DNA of 64,000 nt from Heliocidaris erythrogramma (lineage: Eukaryota > Echinodermata > Echinoidea > Camarodonta > Echinometridae), in NCBI GenBank assembly GCA_025617745.1, contig CM046853.1:59295233-59359232 (forward strand), given 5' to 3'. A model generated the notes under the pieces. That model had not been told where the DNA came from. It worked only from the letters and a program-made list of their open reading frames with translations, and searched no databases. The stretch's first letter is position 1. Every line of letters starts with the position of its first letter. This document shows positions 6,233 to 62,596 of this stretch, one piece after another. Both the position numbers and the translations under genes were made by a program.

Positions 6233-8007
6233 GGAATATAATAAAGAAGAAGAAACGATCATTAGTATCTACCGAAATCCAAGTAATATTTCTTTGAATA
6301 TTAGTATTGCTTTGAAATACATAAAACTTATGGGACCCGTATAAAGAAAAAGTTGCGAATGATATCAATCGTAACTCCGTACAGGGGAATGTAAATTTGC
6401 AATTAATTTGGACCCTGGTGATGAATCACGATAGTACTAGCAGGAAGATTGTTATGCCAGTTAAATGAATAGTGAAAATCTAATATTTAATAGCGGCAGA
6501 TAGCCAAGCTTGACATCGGGGCTTGTAACTTTTACAATGTGCACATCAGCCAAATACATATACCGATAATGCTATACTGCTTTGTAGGCTCAAACAATGT
6601 ACGTAAAATACATACACCAAAAATAGAAGACCGAAGTAATATTTTATTTATACTCTGGCCCGGATCCAGGGGGAGGCGGAAGGGGGCATACGCCCCCAAT
6701 TTTTTTGACAAGGGAAGTTTATATGGGGGTAACCTTTGATGAAAAATATGGAGAAAAAAATTTGATAATCTGATAGCCAGCCCCCCCCCCCCCCCGAGCA
6801 AGGGCTGGCAAGAAGAAATTAGTAAAAATATTATATACGTGTACTTTTTGCATAATAGTCAAATGACTGCCTCGCTATACCCTAAAGCCATAAAAAGTGA
6901 CATTTGGAGAATTTGATTCTGTGGATTTCTCTAATAGATTATGATAACATTCATTTTGTTTCATGAAAATAATCAAATACCAAAGAGGGATTAGTAAGGA
7001 GAAATGGAAAGATATGAAATGGATTATTCGTAGCTAAAGTGAACAGGTTACTTTTCAGTATAGAACAATAAAAGTTGTTTGATGACTAGTTTACTAGTCA
7101 AGGCATAGCATCTCTTCGACAAAGTACTGCGGCTGGGAATGAATAAGGGAACTGTCGGCTAGCGACAGACGTGTTGCCATTTTCCTTTTATGTGTGAGTC
7201 TATGGCGCGGTTACGGTGTTCAGATCCAGAGAGGGGGGGGGGGGGTGAATACATGATTATATGTAATAATTGGGCGAATTTGTTCATTTCTTTTTCTCTC
7301 GATCTATGAAAAATGGAATGTAGCCCGGCTACATCGAAGTTCTCTCATTCCTTATTTGTCATTTTTCTATTAATTCTGTTACGTGACACCTTTTCATTTT
7401 TTATTTAATCTTGATATTCAGCTCTGATAGGTTATCGGTAACAGAGAGGTGTAAGAGAGGGATAGGGAGAGAATTATCTCTTCCACCTCTTTGGGCTATG
7501 TTTTATGAGCAAAATCTAAACTGTTCCATTGGATCTGCCGTACAGCCGCAACTGCTGGTAAGTCCATGGTACTGGCTATAACCCTTACTCGTGCTGTTAC
7601 TACAGTCTTATTGGGTTGAGTTACCTCAATACCTATATTGAAATATACAGTGTACATTAAAAAAAGGGAAAAAAAAACAGTGTTGAATTCCATAGGTTTT
7701 GTGCCAACATTTACATCAATGACATTGTCCCGGGATGATTAAAACAAGAGTATAGTGAGCTTTTAATAGAACTGGTGACTTTGAAGAATTAAAATATTGA
7801 ACTACCAGTATTACGTAAAATTATGGGTTTCGTACTTCCTGTGACAAATTCTCTGTTGGGAATTGGCTGGTTGTAAATACCACAGAATCAAGTATTATAT
7901 AACACTAAAATGTCTTTTGAAAGCCACAAATAATGTTTGCTCTCAACACAATAGAATTGATTGCCTGCTCAAGATTACCTTGTCTGGGCTTGGCTAAATC
8001 CTTTATA
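6233..8007. other. Intergenic, G-rich repeat scraps
   Basis: No gene recognised. 6655-6800 holds a G-rich scrap (CCCGGATCCAGGGGGAGGCG), a common look for decayed transposon ends, and a C-run at 6780-6795. A G-run at 7228-7246 is isolated. The rest is AT-rich. Confidence 0.5.
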
Positions 8008-8386
8008 TTAACCCTATGTTAACAGGGGGGGAGGGGTGTCATTTTGACCCCCCTGTACAAATTTCACAGTTGCCGCCTGCCGTTACACAACTTTTTTCCA
8101 TCTTTTGACACCTTGTTTGCGAAAATTGGACAAGGGGTTATTGGGTTATGACTGGTTATGTAATAGCCTGTTGGCTCAAAAACTGGCAAAAAACAGGATT
8201 TTGCATAGATTTGTGAACAAATGGAAAATATTCATTTTAGTAAAACACTGCTAATTTTGTTTTCTAATCCATTTTAATCATATTTTCTCTGTCAAAACTT
8301 ATTGAAATAATAATCATAAACAATAGCAACCCCCCCCCCCCCAGGAAGAAAAACAGTATGAAATAGCCCAGTTAAAATAGGGTTGA
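8008..8386. mobile_element. TTAACCCTA-ended MITE (copy 2, shorter relative)
   Basis: The left end TTAACCCTATGTTAAC starts at 8008. The right end, read inward, is TTCAACCCTATTTTAACTGG and ends near 8386, so one TTAA has become TTGA. Interior words (CTCAAAAAC, CACAACTTTT, GTGAACAAATGG) echo the 5544-6232 copy, suggesting a shorter member of the same family. Confidence 0.6.
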
Positions 8387-8390
8387 AGGT

Positions 8391-9055
8391 ATAGTAAAGT
8401 TTTGGTAGGGTCGGAAAATAGATTACTTTTTTGTTCTTATATTCCATTCGGATATACAAACAAAACCTCCACGTCCGTTTGGTCTAATTTTGCAGCATTT
8501 CCAAGATCTTAATTTTTTTGACTGTAAATGCAGAAATACTTGTACCATTGATGGGTATTTTGCGCCACTTTTGGCCAACATGAATTCTAAAACCTACAAA
8601 AATATCTGCATGATTTTTTTTGTTGTGAATTAGATGAAAACGTGAGTAAGCAATTGTGCAGCAGGAAATTACGAACCTGAAAATGTTTTTGAGGCGCTCA
8701 GCGTGAAATAAAGACGTTTACAGTAATACTAGTACCATATATTTTAATTTATCATGGGGTAAAAATCATGAGACCCCACTCTAAATAAAACTTCTGATCT
8801 TCATAAAAATCTAGTAATATCTAACTATTAAAATCTTTGACAAGAATATTGATTTATAAGTTAAATAACTTTTTGCATGGCATTTTTATCAATGAGGGCA
8901 CTGCTTAGGTCAATTAAAGTAATCCCTGGTATCTGTGAACTTTGACCAAATTTGACCGGGCCAATGGCTATTACATGTACCTTCTAGTGAAAGTTCAATG
9001 GCATGAATAAAACATATTTTGGCAAATTCTATGACCCCTACCAAAACTTTACTAT
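8391..9055. mobile_element. MITE with ATAGTAAAGTTTTGGTAGGG termini
   Basis: The left end (8391-8412) and right end (9033-9055) are inverted copies of ATAGTAAAGTTTTGGTAGGG with one extra G on the right. The interior of about 620 bp is AT-rich and non-coding. It abuts the preceding TTAACCC element within about 5 bases. Confidence 0.65.
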
Positions 9056-9655
9056 ATCTTCGAAGTAACTATTTGATTTTAAAGATTTATGTCATGCAAC
9101 ACAAATTTCAACCTTGGATTATTGAAAACAGAAAATTGTTATATACCTATTTGACTATAACTTGTTCAGTGTCATCACAATTGGTGACAAGTACATATTC
9201 ATGTCTTGTTTTTCCCATAATACAAGCCAAAGAAGTATATGTCCCTTGGAAAATCTGCAAGATACAAAGACAAGGAAGATCATGAGGAGAATTTAGAAAG
9301 TTTCCTGGTGATGTGCACAACTGCTAATGTGAATCACGACAACTATAGCCAACAGACTATGTCATATTAAAATGTACCTACATATCTATATTAATAGATG
9401 AAATGACAATGATATAAACCAACTATACACAAAGGTAAGATTAAAAAATATCAGTTTCAAAACTGACTTAATTATACAGCATAGTATTGCTATAACTTAA
9501 AATTTATATGAAAAGCGTACAAATTTACATGGAAAAAAAAGTCCACCCCAACGTTCATAATTTGAAAAGATTTTTTTTAATTTGAGTAGGCCTACATGAG
9601 GGTGATTAATTGGAAAACAAATTCGGTTTGCTTTTAAATAAAATATAACATTACC

Positions 9656-9806
9656 GCTTCCATGGTGGCAATTCGTTGACAGCTGAAAATGGCCACAGTT
9701 GATTGTCTTCGCTGTTGTACACCTGATGCATTGGATTTGTATATTTCCCCATCATATATATCACGGATGCACTCATCATTGGGCAAGTTGAACCTATATG
9801 CCAAGT
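9656..9806 (-). other. Exon-like segment, unidentified
   Basis: The minus strand reads FNLPNDECIRDIYDGEIYKS, then NASGVQQRRQSTVAIFSCQR, between a TATAG acceptor-like site near 9800 and a GGTAATG donor-like site near 9655. LPND-DIYDGEIYKS resembles the DVFDGxxYK spot of unnamed transposon-related proteins in marine invertebrates (weak recollection). No neighbouring exons were found. Confidence 0.3.
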
Positions 9807-10254
9807 CGTTGATAAATGAGGCGTTTGAAAGACAGCACAGAAAACAAAGTTGAGGATAGTATTTTTAACTCAAATTCCCTCAACTTGTTAAAGTATTTTT
9901 TTTAATGTAAAAAAAGAAAAAAACCCTGCATCACCAATTTGGCAAATTTTGATCAATTGTACCCAACTTAGTCTATAATGTTAGGACTGCACAAAATAGT
10001 TTGAAATAATACGTTTTCCATAGTTTGATCCCCAAAATTGGAGATGGTGAAATTTGATTTATGGGACTTCGATTTATGCAGAGTTAACTGTATGTTCCAT
10101 GAGTGTACATGTACATACATATTAATTGATTTCCTTTTATTTTCAACTTGATAACAAGTCTACAGTAAAATTAACAGTTCCATTTACAAATATAATTACA
10201 TTTTTGTCAACTTTCTAGTTTAAGCAGTTCATTGTTGTCATCTGTCATGCATCA

Positions 10255-10616
10255 CGTGGAGAAGGTTTACGGTTCACCATGTGTGTTGGTAGGAGGAAAA
10301 GGAAATTAGAAATGGATAGACGAGAAAGGATGACAAGAGAGAAAAGAAAAAATATTCTTTCGTGACAATGGGTGAAGTCCTGAAAAGGACTGTAAACCAA
10401 TAGGAAGGTTTACTGGTTCACCAGGTTTATGGATAGGTGAAGGGTGATGGATGATCTGTAAACCAGATGAGATGAGATGACTTGGTTGATGATCGATGGA
10501 TGAGTAGCAAAGGTTTGAGTAGGAGGTTACTCGATGTTTCGGACAGGTTGACTGTCCGTCATCAGGAGTGAAGTGTGCTAGACGAGCGGCGGGGTTTAAT
10601 GGTGTGTATGCGGACG
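10255..10616 (-). mobile_element. Penelope-like element 3' terminal region (pLTR-like)
   Basis: Non-coding tail downstream of the PLE ORF on the minus strand. It shares blocks with the separate copy at 28382-28760: GTGGAGAAGGTTTA with GGTTCACC, the hairpin GTCCTGAAAAGGAC with TGTAAACCA, and the stem-loop block at 10537-10565. The shared order and spacing identify both as ends of one PLE family. The hairpin GTCC-TGAAAA-GGAC lies at about 10378-10391. Confidence 0.7.
10537..10565 (-). ncRNA. Hammerhead-ribozyme-like motif in PLE tail
   Basis: On the minus strand the block reads CTGATGA, then a 7-bp stem (CGGACAG/CTGTCCG) with a short loop, then AAAC. This is the hammerhead core order CUGAUGA-stem II-GAAA. 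PLEs are known to carry hammerhead ribozymes in their terminal repeats. Against a perfect match, one extra C must be bulged for the G of GAAA to stay in the core, and stems I and III could not be drawn convincingly by eye. Call it hammerhead-like only. Confidence 0.35.
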
Positions 10617-12860
10617 TCAGAGGAATCCGCGGCCAGTGGTGTGGGCGGGGTTGCTGCTATTATGTCGGAGGGATTGGTAGCGGGTGGCTGGCGGCGTGAA
10701 GTCCTTTGTGTGGTTGATGGTCGTGGGCGGAGATTGTACCGGGTTTGAGTAGGTGGGACGGCCTGAGGGTTGGGTGGTGTGTTGGCGTTGGTAGTCGGCA
10801 GGTCGGATGGTCGGCGGGTTGAGTGGGCTGTGAGTCGGGTTTGGTGGGCGGCGATTCATTGGATTGAGTTGTCAGTGGTGCTGGTTGTGTGGATTGGGTT
10901 TGGTGTTGGTTGGTGCCCGTGAAGGATTGGGTGCCAGATGTGGTTGAGTTGAAGTCCTGTGTCCTGTGGTACTGTGTCGTGGCGTTGAATCTCGATGGCC
11001 TCCCTCACTCGTCTGGTGTGCCAGTGCTTGATGTTAGTGATTAGAGTGCTGTGTGCCCAGTCGATGTGGTGATCCTCTTGTTGTGCGTGTTTGACTATTG
11101 CTGATTTGTCCCAGTCGCCAAGTCGGTGGCAGGCCTTGTGTTCCTTGAGTCTTGTGTTGAAGTCTCGTCCTGTCTCTCCGGTGTAGACTTTGCCGCAGTC
11201 GCAGGGAATCTTGTATACGCCGGGTTGTTTGTTGGTAGGGGTCTTGTCCTTGTGTGAGTGCAAGATGGAGTGAAGTTTCTTGGAGGATCGGTGTCGGACT
11301 TTGAAGTTGGCCTGAGTAAGTATGCGGTGTAGTTGGTGGGATGTCTTGCCGAGGTACAGGAGAACAACTGTGGTGGGTTGGTGATGAGGTGGGTGGGTGG
11401 AGATCTTCTTCCTAGGGTATTGGTTGATGGAGGTGATTGAGTTCTTGTTGAAGATGGTCCTTGTCACTGAGTTGGTAGGCGCGTCTGATGAGGGAGTTGG
11501 GTACCGACTGATGGATGGGTGGTGGAAGGAGCGGTAGTTGAGGTATCTGTCCGTGTGGGTAGGTTTTCGGTAGATCTGGTGTGAGAGGAACACTGAGTTG
11601 GTCTTCTTGACGAGAACGTCCAGGAAAGGGATTGAGTCGTTGAGTTGAGTCTCCATTGTGAACTTGATATCCGGGTGTTGGCTGTTGAGGTGGTCGAGGA
11701 ATCGGTGCAAGTCTGTTGAGCTGTGTGGCCAGATGACGAAAGTGTCGTCTACGTAGCGAAGCCAGAGTGAGGGTCGTTTGTCGGTGGTCTTCAGTGCTTG
11801 GTGTTCGAGGTGCTCCATGAAGATGTTGGCGATGATTGGCAGCCCCTTTGAGTTTGTAGAAGTTGGTACGCCACTTGAAGGAATTGGAGTTGAGGCAGGT
11901 GAGAAGGTCGTCGATCTGGTCAGGAGTGAGGTTGGTGCGTGAGGCAAGGTCTGAGTCGGTGAGGAGTCGTCTGATATCGCAGGTTTCGGTGACTGGTACG
12001 CTGGTGAAGAGTGAGACGACGTCGAAGCTAACGAGTGTCGGTGGGTTGAAGCTTGGTCTTGGAGATGTGAGTTGGTGACGTGATGGTCGGTGAGGCCTAC
12101 TAGTGGTTGAAGTATGGTGGCTAGGTGTCGTGCTGTATTGTAGCTGGGAGATCCGCGGGTGGAAATGATGGGTCGGAGAGGCGTGTCGGGTTTGTGAATC
12201 TTGGGTTGGCCGAAGAGGATGGGGCAGGTGCCTGAAGAAGATCGGAGCTGAAAGTAGAGTGGTTTGGGTATGATGTCTTTGCGGTGGAGAGCGAGTAGCT
12301 TCAGGTTGATCTTCCTTTCCGTGGCTTGGGTCGTGCTTGAGTTCTTGGTAGGTGTCCGTTGATCTTGTGGTTGTAGTCCTGTTGGTCCATGACGACTGTT
12401 GCGTTGCCCTTGTCAGCTTGAATGTGGATGGATTGGTTTTTCGCGTAGTTCCTTAATGGCTTGGTGTTCTTCCTTGGTTAGGTTGGGTTTGGGTGGCTTG
12501 GAGTCGGCTGGGGCGTTGGTCACTTTGCGTCTAATTTCGTCGGCGGCTGTCTTGGAGAGGAAGCGGAGCTTGGGTTCAACTTGCTGGATCACATCGGAGA
12601 AAGGGAACTTCTTGGGGGGGACGGCAAGGTTAAGTCCTAGAGAAAGTACCTTGTGTTGAGGTTGAGTGAGTTGGTGCTTGCTGAGGTTGATGACGGTGTC
12701 CTTGTGTCTAGGGTGGCGTGAGTTGGTTGAATTTGTTGATGTGCTTAAGTCGGGTCGAGCTGAAGGCTTGGTCGGCGGTGTCCTTGTTGAAGGTGTTGAT
12801 CTTGTGTAGGTCTTCCGGATTGAGTAAACTGGATTTAAATATGAAATATCATTGTGGCAA
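10617..12860 (-). pseudogene. Penelope-like retroelement: RT plus GIY-YIG ORF, degraded
   Basis: Remains of a Penelope-like element (PLE), a retrotransposon that pairs a telomerase-related reverse transcriptase with a GIY-YIG endonuclease. From N to C: an N-terminal part with VEPKLRFLSKTAADEI and NLTKEEHQAIKELRE (12420-12630); frame-shifted HIQADKGNATVVMDQQDYN (about 12370-12430); RT finger FGQPKIHKPDTPLRPIIS (about 12160-12225); palm motif YVDD at 11744-11755 within LRYVDDTFVIW; a conserved SIPFLDVLV block; and the GIY-YIG nuclease with GVYKIPCDCGKVYTG (GVY at 11213-11221, VYTG at 11177-11188) and QLNHIWHPIL. The longest open piece is 10856-11947 (363 codons). The GxxMGSPLSP motif expected before ANIFMEHLE is missing (TNSKGLPIIANIF), so the RT is internally deleted. 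It is 5'-truncated: its sequence ends near 12840, only about 130 bases past the RAG1L stop. Confidence 0.88.
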
Positions 12861-12987
12861 GAGATTCTGTTAGAATATTCCAAAGTCCATGTAGATACAA
12901 CTTATTTTTCACAATAATAAGCGATTGTAGAGGTGATAAAACAAAAATAAATCTTAATTTCAAGTTCATGATTACATTTTTGCATCC

Positions 12988-14205
12988 TTACTTTGATGTA
13001 CATTTGTAAGACCTGGAAGCAACTATGACCATACGCCTAAGCTTTGGACGAGTATACAACCAATGCATCCAAAGGATGTATCGAAGTGAGTCCAGGGTGC
13101 AATTTTTCCTTGAGAAATTACGGCGTATATCCCTGAACAGTTTGTTTGCGGCCTCGTTGCCTTCTCCACTCGGGTCTCCAATTGTTCCAGGGCCTCGAGG
13201 ATCTTTGAGCACTTCTTGGACGTGCTCAATTATCTTATGAAGATAATTAGGCCATGATGCATATGGAAACTGACTGTCGAGAAGATCTGCCATCTGTACA
13301 ACTTTCACTTTGTAGGTGGCAAAATCAGCCTGTAGCAGATGATGGGCCCTGTAGACTTCCCTGAGCTTCCTAAAAAGAGACATCACTTCAGAAAGATGTT
13401 TTTTTTCTCGGGGTCAGGGATGAGCTGAAGAATTATGTCTATTTCTCGAGTCAAAGAGCTGACGAGCATAATTGCCCGGCATCATCAGGGTTGGCGCAAG
13501 TCCAAGAGATGCCCTGATATGGTCATCGAATCTTTTCTCGGCATCCTCAAACATTACCTTCACATCGCGTGTAATCTCCAAAGTGTATGTCCTTGCAATT
13601 TCATACACGATCAACTTTTGAAAGAAGGATCCCAGATTTATGTCCACATGTGTTAAGTGCGATAAGTTTATGGTCTTGGTCCATTTGCAATTCATTCTGA
13701 GACAGATTATTTGGGTTGGTCTGTATATAATTGGCTGTGTCTACGGTTTCCTCGAAAGAGCGTGTTATGGAGAAAGATCCAATGTCTGATCTGGCAGTGT
13801 CCCATGTAGCATGGCATAAAGTACAAAGATACTTGGAGCCGCTCCGTCCAACTTCTCATCTATCATTGAGTTGTTGAATATCAACTTGTGCCTCCTCCAC
13901 CATCCATTAACAAACACCGTCATCTCTTTGTTCTTCATAACATCCCTGCTATGCTCCATCGAATCTGGCTCATATACTAGAACTTTGGAGCCCCCCACCT
14001 CTACCTCGCACTTCACCACAGAATGTAGTCCACCTACTGGACTGTATTGAATAATCCACACAGCAAGCAGACCAAGCGGACGTTGAGGGCGAGTGACTTA
14101 GACAAATTTGTCGATCCTCGATACAGTCTAGCCAAACCTGCCATCTCCCCCGAATTTCAGGGGGAAATCTCACCGTCGGGCTCCGCCTATATGATTGTCA
14201 AAGCT
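12988..14205 (-). pseudogene. RAG1L: RAG1-like (RAG1L/ProtoRAG) transposase, frameshifted core
   Basis: Relic of a RAG1-like DDE transposase/recombinase, related to the V(D)J recombinase and to ProtoRAG and Transib transposons. Read with several frame changes, the pieces follow the vertebrate RAG1 core in order. EPDGEISP (14169-14192) sits at the D600 site. MIDEKL (13849-13866) sits at the D708 site. ITRSFEETVDTANY (about 13727-13768) matches the ITRSHAENLERY block. HVDINLGSFFQKLIVYEI lies in 13560-13650. PGNYARQLF matches NGNFARKL, and LQLIPDPEKK (about 13400-13432) matches CELIPSEER. GEGNEAANKLFR (about 13135-13167) matches the E962 motif, and HWLYTRPKLRRM lies near the C-terminus. All three acidic residues are present (codons at 14175-14177, 13858-13860, 13153-13155). 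The CxxC zinc residues that follow D708 in vertebrate RAG1 are not seen (IFVLYAML instead). Stops or frameshifts occur near 14185-14200, 14150-14160, 14098, 13767, 13660-13690, 13440, and in a homopolymer near 13400. The N-terminal RING and nonamer-binding regions were not found upstream. Alignment is from memory of the family. Confidence 0.85.
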
Positions 14206-14704
14206 CAGGTGATTAGTTTATTGCAAATTGTGTGTGTGTGTAATTGGGTTTTTACAGTCGTGGCCGATTAAGTTATAGTCTAAATTCAAGGCTTTACAAT
14301 TTATTATAAGTTTAATCCAAAATAGATTTTGACATTTCTTTAAATTAGTTTAAAAACCGCAGTGAATATTGAATATATATTTGAATGAATCAAATCTTCC
14401 CTGCCATTTTCTTTGACGGCCATCGCCATCGAGCAGCGAGTATATCAAACACCGTGCACCTCTAGCTCTGGAAGTTTTCACTCACGGCCACTGCACACAT
14501 GCATTGTTTTCTTTCGCTAACATCGCGATCTCGGGCGCATGTGATCAGCTGTTTCTCGCAATGCATATTCATTACGGAGCGGTTATGTATGAATATCAAT
14601 TTTTTTATATTGATCGATATGTTCATATAGGGGGGATGGGGAACAAAGAAGAAAAAGAAACTTTATGCTTTCTTGGAGATGTGTAGCCCTAATAAGGGCC
14701 CAAC
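14206..14704. other. Spacer between RAG1L and pogo relics
   Basis: No coding sequence recognised. The missing N-terminal RAG1L core (upstream of the first Asp) was not found here. 14225-14245 has a short (GT)n. A short CCCTAATAAGGGCCC palindrome lies near 14686-14700. Confidence 0.5.
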
Positions 14705-15530
14705 CCTAACAATGGACTAAGGCTTTATGAAAAGCCAAGAAATTCCTTGTCGGAGGAAGAGGCATTGAAGAGTCTCTCATCTGAATATGCCAGCTCATCC
14801 TTGGTGCCGTGAGCTTGTTGGAGACGCAGCACTTCAGGAAGGCCTTGATGGGCTCCGCTGGAATCTTTTCCCATACTTCGATGATCCACTTGCAGATCGT
14901 CGCCAATTCGACCTTGATGCGCCCGGACTTGGTTGTCTTCCCAGAGTTGCTTGAGGGCGGTCCTTGAAGGGCTTGTTGATGGTGACATCTAGTGGCTGTA
15001 GTAGAAATGTCATCCCGTCAGTGACCATAGTTAGGTCGATGTTGAGCCGCTGAAGAAATTACTTGGTTTCATCCGACTTATGGCATTTGAAGGCGTCCAG
15101 AACCAGAAGACTGCGTCGACAACAGAGACCTCCAACGCACGGCCCCCACACAATCTTCAGCCAGTCAACGAGGAACTGGTCCATCCAACCTTTAGTCTGG
15201 GCTCGTACAATCATACCCTGCAGGAGCTTGACGTCCTTAGGTAGCGTCTTCCTCTTGAACACTATGTAAGGGGGTAGCTTGCCTCCATCAGCCGTACAGC
15301 CAAGCATGACAGTGAAGCGGTCCTTCCTGTGCCCCGTCGTGACTAATTCCACCGTCTTCCCTCCTTTTTCTGCGACAGTGCTCGACCTCGGCAGATCAAA
15401 CGTTAGCGAAGTCTGGTCGCCGTTACCGATGCGGTTCAGTCCTCATCCTGATGATGAACCGATGGAAGTTGGTGGACTTCTCCTGTCGTCGGAAGTTTCT
15501 GGGCAATGTGGGTGCACCGTCTGACAGTGG
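14705..15530 (-). pseudogene. Pogo/Tigger-type DDE transposase relic
   Basis: Degraded C-terminal two thirds of a pogo-family (Tc1/mariner superfamily) transposase. In order: IGNGDQTSLTFDLP (15413-15430 and below) at the first-Asp region; TTGHRKDRFTVMLGCTADGG; KLPPYIVFKRKTLPK; AQTKGWMDQFLVDWL; RRSLLVLDAFKCH, with the second catalytic Asp at 15095-15097; one in-frame stop at 15059-15061; then QRLNIDLTMVTDG, FLLQPLDVTINKPFKD with the third Asp region, and WIIEVWEKIP. An acidic tail (DELAYSDERLF, SDKEFLGF) ends near 14725. The tail needs frame changes near 14960 and 14900. No CENP-B/HTH N-terminus was found, and no terminal inverted repeats are evident. Confidence 0.85.
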
Positions 15531-15659
15531 TGGGCTCTAGCATTTTGACTTAGCAGTGTCCCACCAGCGTAGTACATCAAGGTGATGCACACTTGTAAAG
15601 TGACATTTAATGCATTATTTCTGTTGGTTTCATAAGTCGGCTGCCAGGAGGTTTACTAA

Positions 15660-15768
15660 TTACTTGACTCCTGTGCGTGTGAATCGGTAAGCCTTTCGAA
15701 TCTCATCATTCAATCCTTGTAACAGATCCTCTCCTGGCAGGACCACCCTCCTTTCCCTAATAGCCATT
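15660..15768 (-). other. Short ORF with ATG, unidentified
   Basis: Starts ATGGCTATTAGGG at 15768 and encodes MAIRERRVVLPGEDLLQGLN then DEIRKAYRFTRTGVK and stop. It could be a first exon or a fragment of a transposon gene. It lies just upstream (in minus sense) of the pogo relic but is not recognisable as its N-terminus. Confidence 0.25.
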
Positions 15769-16559
15769 TTGTTGCTATGAAGCACTTACGCACAATTTTA
15801 CGCAAAACATTTGATTTTAAGAACAGTCCAATACCTTGCGTAACTTTACGCACGATTTTTGGCACTTACGAACAACTCAAATCTTTATGGAATAGCTCGA
15901 GTTGTGTGCAACTTTACACAGCTAAACACAAATTTAAGAACAACTCCGGGCACTTACACACAGCTTTATGAAACACCCCCCCCCCCCCCCCCACTTGGGC
16001 ACTGAAAGGGGAGAACCCATGCTGAAAGAGATCCTCCAGTTTCCTTTAGCAATCTCACATTTCAAACTGCCAGATTATTGACCCGATTTTTTTTTTTTTT
16101 TTTAACTTTCACCATTCCGTTTCTCTTTTTCTGATTCCATACCAATGATGTTATTACAATGGTTGGGTTGCCCTTTACTTCAAAAGTCGCCGGGCTAGAC
16201 TTCCATATGTACCCTCCACTAAAATTGAAAAAAAAAATATGGGTATGTCAGAAGTCCATATCAAGTAGTAAAAATGTGAGAAAACACTTTAATAGAAATT
16301 TAAATACAGGACCATATTAATACATAGTATATATACATGTATGTACTATACATACATGTATGTGTATTACATGTAAATTTGGATGTAAGACGAAGTAATA
16401 AGACATGACAAATTAGGGTTAAGGTTGTGTTTTGAAAAGGATATTTAGAATGAACTCACCATTTACTTGTTGGGATCATACAACAGCAGCATCCCTCAAA
16501 AACGTGCTGAACAGGTCATCCTCTTGAGGCTGTCACCACATATATTCTACTAGGTGCAG

Positions 16560-17290
16560 ATGCCATTTGTCTCTTGATCTGCTACCACAATCCTTTCATA
16601 GTATTAGTATGTTGTTGGGTCTCTGGGTCCACAAAATGCAAAGAATGGTTCAGTTAAATGCTGGAATCCCTTCACACCTAAGTTGTCATATGCTTTCCAA
16701 CAATCACTGATTGTTGTCCCTGGTTTGATGTGTTCAGAGTCGCCCTATCTCTCTTGTCTTGAAGAGGAACAAGAAAAATCTTTGGTTTCACGGCAGATAC
16801 CACCAAAAACCCACTGTCCCTCTACGGCTCTACCACGATGATATTTACGTTTGCCGAACTTTGATTCGTCGATTTCAACAGTAAATCTGGGTCCACCAAT
16901 TAGAGCTACCCGGTGAAGTTGAAGGCACGGTACCAGAAGTAGGTGTTGAAGATGTAGGTGTGGAAATAGGAGGTAGCGTAGTACCGGAAGAATGCGGCGC
17001 AGAAGAGGACGTAGAACGAGATGTCGCAGATGCGGATGTAGACCTAGTAAAAATAGTGACACAGCTGTGACACCTGCTTCTACTATCTGTTGATGATGTA
17101 GTACTAGATTCACCAGATGAAATGTATTGCACGATTATATGGCAATTTGTATGAAACAATATACAAGGAGACTTCTTCGGATGGATAAGTTTGACTGTCC
17201 AAACCAAGTTCCCTTCCTGACTGGTAATTGATTCTTCTTCAACCTACACTTATGGCGATTGCACTGGAAACGTACCTCGGCCTTCTGTCG
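16560..17290 (-). pseudogene. Merlin (ISXO2/IS1595-like) transposase, degraded
   Basis: The transposase of the enclosing element. The N-terminal part reads FQCNRHKCRLKKNQLPVRKG and TWFGQSNLSIRRSLL (about 17165-17270), the usual zinc-ribbon and SxxKGTWF start of ISXO2 proteins. The catalytic part reads [20 protein letters not shown] with [13 protein letters not shown] (about 16780-16905), then KPGTTISDCWKAYDNLG (16680-16740) and NHSLHFVDPETQQHTNTMKG (about 16585-16650). The family normally has NTxE in the last motif; here it is NTMK, so the third catalytic acid seems lost. Between the halves, 16915-17110 is low-complexity Ser/Thr/Pro-like sequence with no family match. At least one stop and two frame changes break it. 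Confidence 0.82.
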
Positions 17291-17561
17291 ACCTTGTCGC
17301 TGAATCTGCAAAAAGAGGGGAAGAAAACATAAATTAGATTTTATGGGCTAGGTTTGCTTCATTTGTTTTTGTTTTTTCTTTTTAGATGCCAAATACCACT
17401 GCTACATGGCTTTACTCCGTTAGCTCACAATCCGAACAGCTGATATTTACCTTATGAGGCTAGCAATATGAACCAAAATCCAAACGCCATCTAGTGACCG
17501 CTGTATTATAGTCTAAGCCACCTATATTAATGTCAAAATCCTCACAGCTGTCAACTCTCAT

Positions 17562-17625
17562 CCGTGGACACATCGTGTAGTCGGAGGTCTGCCATCCTCG
17601 AGGATCCAGGTTCGAGTCCATCACT
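17562..17625 (+). other. tRNA-like pol III promoter fragment inside the Merlin element
   Basis: The stretch contains GGTTCGAGTCC (17609-17619), a perfect B box, and GTGTAGTCGG (about 17575), similar to an A box about 30 bases upstream. It could be a tRNA pseudogene or the head of a tRNA-derived SINE. A full cloverleaf could not be drawn, so it is not called as a tRNA gene. Confidence 0.35.
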
Positions 17626-17852
17626 TTCTTCAATTAACATCTTGACTGAATATTAATGTTTCCTCACAGGTACTTGCAGAGAGAGACAGGGTGAGAGAGA
17701 GACATATACAATTTTTCTTTTATAATAACCCTCCAAAAATTTCCAGGCCCCATTTTTTTTACTCAACCCCCATCAAAAAAATCGCCCTTTCAGAATGTAG
17801 GCTAGAGCTGTAATTTGGAAAAATTTTAGTGGAGGGTACATATGGAAGTCTT

Positions 17853-19000
17853 TCCCTTTTACTTTTTAGCTTTATACCAAAATTTACTGTTACTCGTCAT
17901 TAAGTTGTCCAAATCAAATCTGGATCTCTCAAACTGGAAAACAGGTTTACATGGTTTGTAATGTCTTATGAAAGCACAAACAGCCTCCAAGATATAACGA
18001 AGATATGAACTTGAGTGAGATCTAACTTGGTGAAGATTCGCCATCGCTATGACCACACTGTTCGCAGACTGACAAGTGAGGGCAGTGTATTAAAGGACAT
18101 CTCCCGTCTTTCCATCAATGAAATGGGACGGAAAGTTGTGTGCTACGACCATCACGATCTGTTATCTCTCCGTCCTGTAGCTTTCCCATCCCACATAGCT
18201 CTGTAGTAGTTCATTGCAAACTGTACATAGGATTGCGTAGGTGAAAATGGAACTGTATTACAGGTAGCTCATTTGACGCCAACACAATTTTGTTAGATTT
18301 GTGGACTGTCCTATGGAGGCATCAAATTTCTAGTTTTTAAGACTCGTTTTCTAGATTGGAGGGGACCTCTTTATTTTATTTCATCTTACTGGAAATTCTT
18401 TTAAGGCACCGGTGCTTGATCAGCATTGTTGCCTAAATAAATGGATATTAATTGCATTGTTTTCTGCTCCATGAGAATTTTGTACAGCTCTGTCTATTAT
18501 TTTGTACCTCATACTTTATATTTCCTGCGATGTGCCCTAGCTTTTCTTTCTCCCTTCATCACACGACTCCTTAAGTTCATACATTAGAAATCATAAGTAG
18601 GCCTGCAGCAATTGATCAATTTGAAATTACCTCTTTAATGCATCCTAATATTCCTTTGAATGCACATTACTCAACTGTAGATTAATGAACAGTGTGCACA
18701 AATTAAAAAAAAATTAAACATTCCCTCATAGGAAGGTAAAAGTCTACATGTATTAAAGTGAATACAATAAAGAATCAATACAACAAAGTACTTTCGCGAT
18801 ATGAAAACATGAATTATAAATTAAAGACATTGTGAGCATATAATGAATATTAAAGTCGAGATGAAAAACGGATAATTAATTTTACAAATCTTAAACCAAC
18901 AAAAAATGAGTGAAATTCCTTAGATTACAAATGGCGAATGCTCTAGAAATGCAAACAAAGTCTCTAAACCTCAGTCGGTGCTTGACCATGTGTGTATGAG
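17853..19000. other. Intergenic, nothing recognised
   Basis: AT-rich unique-looking sequence with short open frames only. No transposase, RNA or host exon could be supported. Confidence 0.5.
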
Positions 19001-61113: not shown

Positions 61114-61148
<35 letters not shown>

Positions 61149-61153
<5 letters not shown>

Positions 61154-61774
61154 ACATGGCTTTACTTCCGAGGACAACTATTGTTCCTCTATTGTTACTC
61201 GTCCTCGGACAGTCGACGGAATAAGGCATAAATTCATTGTTCGACGTTCGAGGACTATTGTCCGCCTTCCGAGGACCATTGTTGTCATGATTTTTTTTTT
61301 GTTCTCTGTCCGAAAATGTCCTCGGACATAATGCTAAACAAACGCACACACACACGTTTACATGGCTTTACTTCCGAGGACAACTATTGTTCCTCTATTG
61401 TTACTCGTCCTCGGACAGTCGACGGAATAAGGCATAAATTCATTGTTCGACGTTCGAGGACTATTGTCCGGCTTCCGAGGACCATTGTTGTCATGATTTT
61501 TTTTTGTTCTCTGTCCGAAAATGTCCTCGGACATAATGCTAAACAAACGCGCCCTCACACACACGCACACACACACACGTTTACATGGCTTTACTTCCGA
61601 GGACAACTATTGTTCCTCTATTGTTACTCGTCCTCGGACAGTCGACGGAATAAGGCATAAATTCATTGTTCGACGTTCGAGGACTATTGTCCGCCTTCCG
61701 AGGACCATTGTTGTCATGATTTTTTTTTTGTTCTCTGTCCGAAAATGTCCTCGGACATAATGCTAAACAAACGC
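61149..61774 (+). repeat. CA-linked tandem unit, locus 2 (three copies)
   Basis: Three units starting CGTTTACATGGCTTTACTTC at 61149, 61355 and 61578 (spacing 206 and 223), separated by CA-rich linkers. They are almost identical to each other and to the unit at 51622. CCGAGGACAACTATTGTTCC and GTCCGAAAATGTCCTCGGAC flank each unit, the latter forming a hairpin (GTCCGA..TCGGAC). Confidence 0.88.
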
Positions 61775-62596
61775 ACACATACACTCACAAATCAAATATT
61801 CTGATGCTAGCAACATGAAAACAAAACCCATGTTTCCGATAGGTCTCTCTTAGTGTCGGGAACCGAAGAACCCCTCGATTACAGTAATGGAGCAGTCCTA
61901 AACTTAAGTTGCCTAATGTATTATGTATTATATGGTTGAAAGCTCAATGGATCACTATTAGCCTATGGAGAACTTTGAGAATGATTCAATACTGAACAAG
62001 GGTGTATCATTTGGTCTATGCATTGGCAATTAGGGTTGAAATATATATGAAAATATCTCTAAATATCCCTTATGGCAAGATTGGCAGCAGTTTAGTTTTG
62101 GCAATAAATAGTTGGCTCCCAATATACATTATTGTCCTTTCCATGCTATAATAAAAAGCCATTTGGTATTGTGGCAAATGTCTCAGAAAAAGAATATTTG
62201 TGCTTGTTTAGTGAAATAAAACACACTGGCAGTGTACAGCATCCTTTTCCAATTAGATACACATTGCCCCCCAAATACCACAGAAACATTACTATAGGTA
62301 GTAACAGCAACTTGAAACAGTTTGGTAGCAGATAAGCTAATGAATATATCCAGGGTAGTCGTTATACATCTGAGTATTGGCGGGAATGTTTGGCTGAGAG
62401 TGAGTGAGGGTGGCTTGAGATGCGTATTGTATAGTGGGTGATGAGTCACTGTCTTGTTATCAAGGCTCTTCCATCTACCTTACGTACACCTGTTGCTTGG
62501 CATGTCAGCCAAGAAAGTGACACCCTTTCAAACAAAAAATTTCTTAGCGAATGCATGTCATCAGTTTGTAGTAGGTCCACGATGTCATAAAAAATG

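Follow-up and report, generated by a model that had tools for sequence, protein, structure and literature searches.

A RAG1-like relic in a sea urchin genome keeps one of three catalytic acids

Does a decayed RAG1-like (RAG1L) sequence in a sea urchin genome still carry the catalytic acids of a RAG transposase, and what kind of ancestor left it there? An earlier note on this locus had described a relic in which all three acids survive in order. We analyzed the 64-kb stretch of DNA that contains it (the window) and related places in the same genome.

Identity and extent of the relic

On the minus strand of the window, we found four collinear pieces with RAG1-family matches (A to D in reading order). 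The RAG1-homologous interval is 13033-14022, read from 14022 down to 13033, and its sequence identifies it as a RAG1L relic. Piece D (12988-13413) contains NYLHKIIEH with the ZnH2 histidines and GEGNEAANKLFR with the third catalytic acid, followed by a stop; RAG1 homology ends at about 13033. Piece D matched the Pfam RAG1 profile (PF12940) with an E value of 7.4e-16 (57.8 bits versus a curated cut-off of 25), the RAG1L protein of lancelet ProtoRAG (PDB 6b40) at 1.9e-33, and zebrafish RAG1 at 4.3e-14, with the GNEAANKLFR block matched. Against 6pqn, an entry titled DNA-mediated transposase that we take to be Transib transposase, the E value was only 0.25.

Piece C (13438-13653; THVDINLGSFFQK...PTLMMPGNYARQLFD) matched 6b40 at 3.1e-18 when searched as 13665-13417, but the Pfam RAG1 profile only at 0.026, which is below the cut-off. 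It carries a histidine that aligns with the histidine of the conserved DIN/DIG block in ProtoRAG and vertebrate RAG1. Piece B (13667-13843; SGSKYLCTLCHATW...) is in a different frame and carries the two zinc cysteines (ZnC2). Searched as 13849-13641, it matched Pfam RAG1 at 5.9e-7 (28.4 bits, above the cut-off of 25) and 6b40 at 3.9e-5. Piece A (13852-14022; SVVKCEVEVGG..YEPDS/MEHSRDVM..NSMIDEK) has no second-Asp block between YEPDS and MEHSRD. It had no Pfam match and reached only 0.035 against 6b40, but it was 63% identical over 38 amino acids to a paralog on contig C7 (E value of 7e-14) and matched a paralog on C21 at 3e-5. For all four pieces, the best match among solved structures was 6b40.

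The pieces had been said to align in order with the RAG1 core from the first Asp region to the C terminus. Their order was borne out. However, the homology begins at 14022, past the first Asp region. When paralog pieces were searched by tblastn against the whole 64 kb, no 5' RAG1L piece was found elsewhere, save that the C21 paralog weakly matched 12824-12771 (18 amino acids, E value of 0.057), which is outside the relic and which we took as chance. Invertebrate RAG1L proteins can end in a tail with the motif Cx2Cx3GHx4C, according to Martin et al. (PMC7204232), and by eye we saw no such motif beyond 13033 in the frames inspected.

Catalytic acids and zinc ligands

We take the catalytic acids to be those of mouse D600 (DGMGDVS block), D708 (ADE block), and E962 (GNEAANKLFR block). 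The third is present in piece D, as GEGNEAANK. The first-Asp block is absent: its DGMG word was not found in any of the six frames of the 64-kb window with up to two substitutions allowed, and a tblastn search with the paralog blocks was also negative. This block (ADGMG) is present in the C18 and C21 paralogs. The second-Asp block is missing from the window as well, leaving a 29-residue gap relative to the C21 paralog; C7 and C21 both carry the true block (RPLxEAIADE). The catalytic triad has not been kept. Two of the three acids are lost, with the third alone surviving.

Two other words had been read as the missing acids. EPDGE, at about 14180, is not part of RAG1L but belongs to a dispersed transposon whose first base is 14026, and it is present in all seven of the other transposon copies that we read. 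MIDEK, in piece A, aligns with MVDEK of ProtoRAG, which is a noncatalytic position.

The zinc ligands fared better than the earlier note had it. The cysteines that follow the second Asp were reported as absent, but we found the CxxC at 13831, in the YLCTLCHAT of piece B. Its frame differs from those of its neighbors, which may explain why it was overlooked. The HxxxxH is also kept, in NYLHKIIEH at 13248. Among single residues, PMC7204232 names H795.

Damage to the reading frame

The relic was also said to contain at least six frame breaks. We saw clear evidence of only two frame changes, one from A to B and one from B to C, plus one short out-of-frame stretch at the junction of pieces C and D (approximately 13411-13456, minus strand), where the main frame has a stop; this stretch was compared by eye with a copy on C5. 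At the two frame changes, the matched pieces are separated by 8 and 13 bases, gaps that are too short for introns. Beyond this, the 5' half is gone and the second-Asp block is deleted.

The relic and its paralogs diverge mostly at synonymous sites. Of 40 piece pairs between the window and its paralogs (the second C5 place, L025, was left out), 13 aligned with a score of at least 60, and in these pN was 0.17 to 0.39 and pS was 0.70 to 1.05. Such values would fit past protein constraint, but because pS is saturated the constraint can be neither dated nor assigned to one branch.

The adjoining transposon

A fragment of a dispersed DNA transposon abuts the relic at 14026-14601 (plus strand), with its terminus (TAGTCCACCTACTGG) at the boundary and its far part missing. 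DNA equivalent to approximately 14026-14300 occurs at no fewer than 39 further sites and once more as a short piece, 40 of the 157 candidates having been scored. The seven best-scoring copies (L002 to L008) were read in detail. All seven begin at the equivalent of 14026, with unrelated flanking DNA. The other end was visible in four, three with perfect 9-base duplications and the fourth with 7 of 9 bases matching; in the remaining three, it was not found within the stretch examined. The element is abundant, and the four copies with both ends seen are 0.8 to 1 kb long, with ends TAGTCCAnnTACTGG. The 9-base duplication is reminiscent of Mutator-like elements.

Beside the terminus in the window are nine bases (CACAGAATG, 14017-14025) that would be the expected left copy of the target site, with no right partner known. 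Because the far half of the transposon is missing, and a matching target-site duplicate with it, we infer rather than observe its insertion into RAG1L. The window copy differs from the seven others by a K2P distance of 0.073 to 0.085 (363 columns), whereas those seven differ among themselves by a mean of 0.017 (range, 0.006 to 0.036). By this measure, the insertion probably predates the seven copies, which are the best-scoring ones, unless the element in the window represents a different subfamily, as it could.

Several other features were seen. A decayed reverse-transcriptase element occupies 10856-12901 (minus strand). Its match to RVT_1 is below the cut-off (E value of 0.018), and by eye it resembles Penelope with a GIY-YIG end. 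A DDE_1 transposase fragment is at 15059-15442 (minus strand; E value of 3.1e-13). A tandem array at 61132-61784 repeats a roughly 206-base unit 3.1 times, and similar translated words occur near 51.4 to 52.0 kb. A tRNA scan gave no lead. Elsewhere in the genome, bindin was matched with an E value of 2.1e-68, and another match lies 0.8 kb from the first. Bindin marks echinoids, so these matches make a sea urchin host very probable.

RAG1L copies elsewhere in the genome

Three genome searches, which gave 7 matches among 8 candidates, 5 among 8, and 4 among 5, resolved to six RAG1L places on five contigs: C1 (the window), C7, C18, C21, and two on C5 that are about 414 kb apart. This agrees with the expectation that RAG1L loci are few per genome. 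A search for an intact RAG1L in the same genome had also been suggested, and none was seen among the six places found. In 10-kb stretches around the other five, all had broken frames or lacked blocks. In sea urchins, RAG1L genes are split into several exons (Yakovenko et al., PMC9885083), so a block absent from a 10-kb stretch could partly reflect an exon farther off. Amino acid identity was 37 to 71% in 15 piece pairs with a score of at least 60 among four of the other places.

The C18 copy (L017, C18:38250000-38259900) is frame-broken but has a 322-residue open frame. It keeps the first-Asp block and the word EGNEAG, and at the second-Asp place it reads DEN, one residue short. It is therefore closer to the earlier description than is the sequence in the window. 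A HAGH_C match lies less than 4 kb from this copy, on the opposite strand.

We also looked for hallmarks of a RAGL element. DNA comparison found no flanking sequence shared by the window and four paralog stretches, so terminal repeats could not be defined. Accordingly, no terminal inverted repeats that start with CAC and no 5-base target duplication were definable from these five stretches. For RAG2L, Pfam scans of the window gave no match at 8001-13000 (plus strand) and DDE_1 alone from scans including 14000-19000 (minus strand), which is a weak test. At four of the five other places, on the downstream side and opposite strand, Pfam gave only the HAGH_C match near the C18 copy. The Pfam RAG2 profile (PF03089) had no match genome-wide, but this is uninformative because the control profile was found in 0 of 14 genomes. 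Heptamer-like (RSS-like) words numbered 56 in the window versus a mean of 46.4 (standard deviation, 6.3), a count reached by 6 of 100 shuffles and hence no clear excess. A tree of five rows had no supported fork and gave no RAGL_B placement.

Discussion

We are nearly certain that the locus as a whole is the dead remnant of a RAG-like transposase gene in a sea urchin, a RAG1L pseudogene that has lost its 5' end. The ancestor would have been a coding, ProtoRAG-type RAG1L. Into this sequence, or at the point where it is broken, a short DNA transposon probably landed, immediately downstream of the first-Asp region. The 5' half is gone, the second-Asp block is deleted, and frame changes have accumulated. 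If the element did land within RAG1L, the gene would have been dead by then. The relic is predicted to make no working transposase and is now most likely functionless.

In its broad outline, the earlier reading stands: the locus is a decayed RAG1-like sequence that lies among transposons and belongs to the RAG1L/ProtoRAG-type lineage, since piece D matched ProtoRAG at 1.9e-33 and Transib at 0.25. The same comparison, with vertebrate RAG1 at 4.3e-14, makes a relic of Transib or of another DDE transposase hardly credible, even with a DDE_1 transposase fragment nearby. A RAG1L relic with all three catalytic acids in order is also very improbable. The words EPDGE, MIDEK, and GEGNEAANK do all occur in the sequence, but the first came up in 7 of 7 other transposon copies, the second corresponds to MVDEK of ProtoRAG, and the second-Asp block is absent. 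GEGNEAANK alone stands.

A closer question concerns the ancestor, which could have been a mobile copy that decayed where it had inserted or a solitary (type II) RAG1L gene, already settled, that was duplicated in the host. The latter is a real possibility, although we lean somewhat against it. Solitary RAG1L genes and pseudogenes have been described in sea urchins (PMC9885083), and both the mostly synonymous differences among copies and the lack of common flanking DNA are consistent with it. However, no intact copy was seen in the genome, and an old transposon lineage would be expected to leave the same signs.

This sea urchin may even have no intact RAG1L left, with six places that are all broken or incomplete and that represent separate old lineages, but we regard this as a tentative and rather doubtful proposal. 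If it is true, this species, at least, could do without RAGL, unlike urchins that express RAG1L and RAG2L. The possibility that a sea urchin loses all of its intact RAG1L copies is of modest interest for RAG domestication. The relic leaves the picture of the origin of V(D)J recombination as it was.

How does the relic compare with known systems? Like the RAG1L of lancelet ProtoRAG (6b40), it has the ZnC2 cysteines, the ZnH2 histidines, and the third acid, and 63 of 123 residues of piece D are identical. Unlike ProtoRAG, it is without first- and second-Asp blocks, its frames are broken, and no terminal repeats or RAG2L were seen. Its C-terminal half is also collinear with vertebrate RAG1, but identity is lower (46 of 117 for zebrafish in piece D) and the triad of the relic is lost.

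Its nearest parallels are in sea urchins. Kapitonov and Koonin (PMC4411706) describe a sea urchin RAG1L that has lost its N-terminal portion and has stops and frameshifts. This fossil, LVRAG1L/LVRAG2L of Lytechinus variegatus, is thus truncated much like the relic. In contrast, LVRAG1L adjoins RAG2L in an Ecp2 intron, whereas the relic has no RAG2L detected by Pfam (a weak test). The type II sea urchin RAG1L described in PMC9885083 is solitary, as the relic appears to be. The same paper reports three to seven RAG1L matches in four urchin genomes, with about 60% of the matches unannotated and treated as potential pseudogenes, and the RAGL copies reported throughout Bilateria in PMC7204232 range from intact through incomplete to possibly fossilized. 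Therefore, the relic is a further ordinary case of the already known sea urchin fossil RAG1L; it adds one member to that set and corrects the claim of a preserved catalytic triad.
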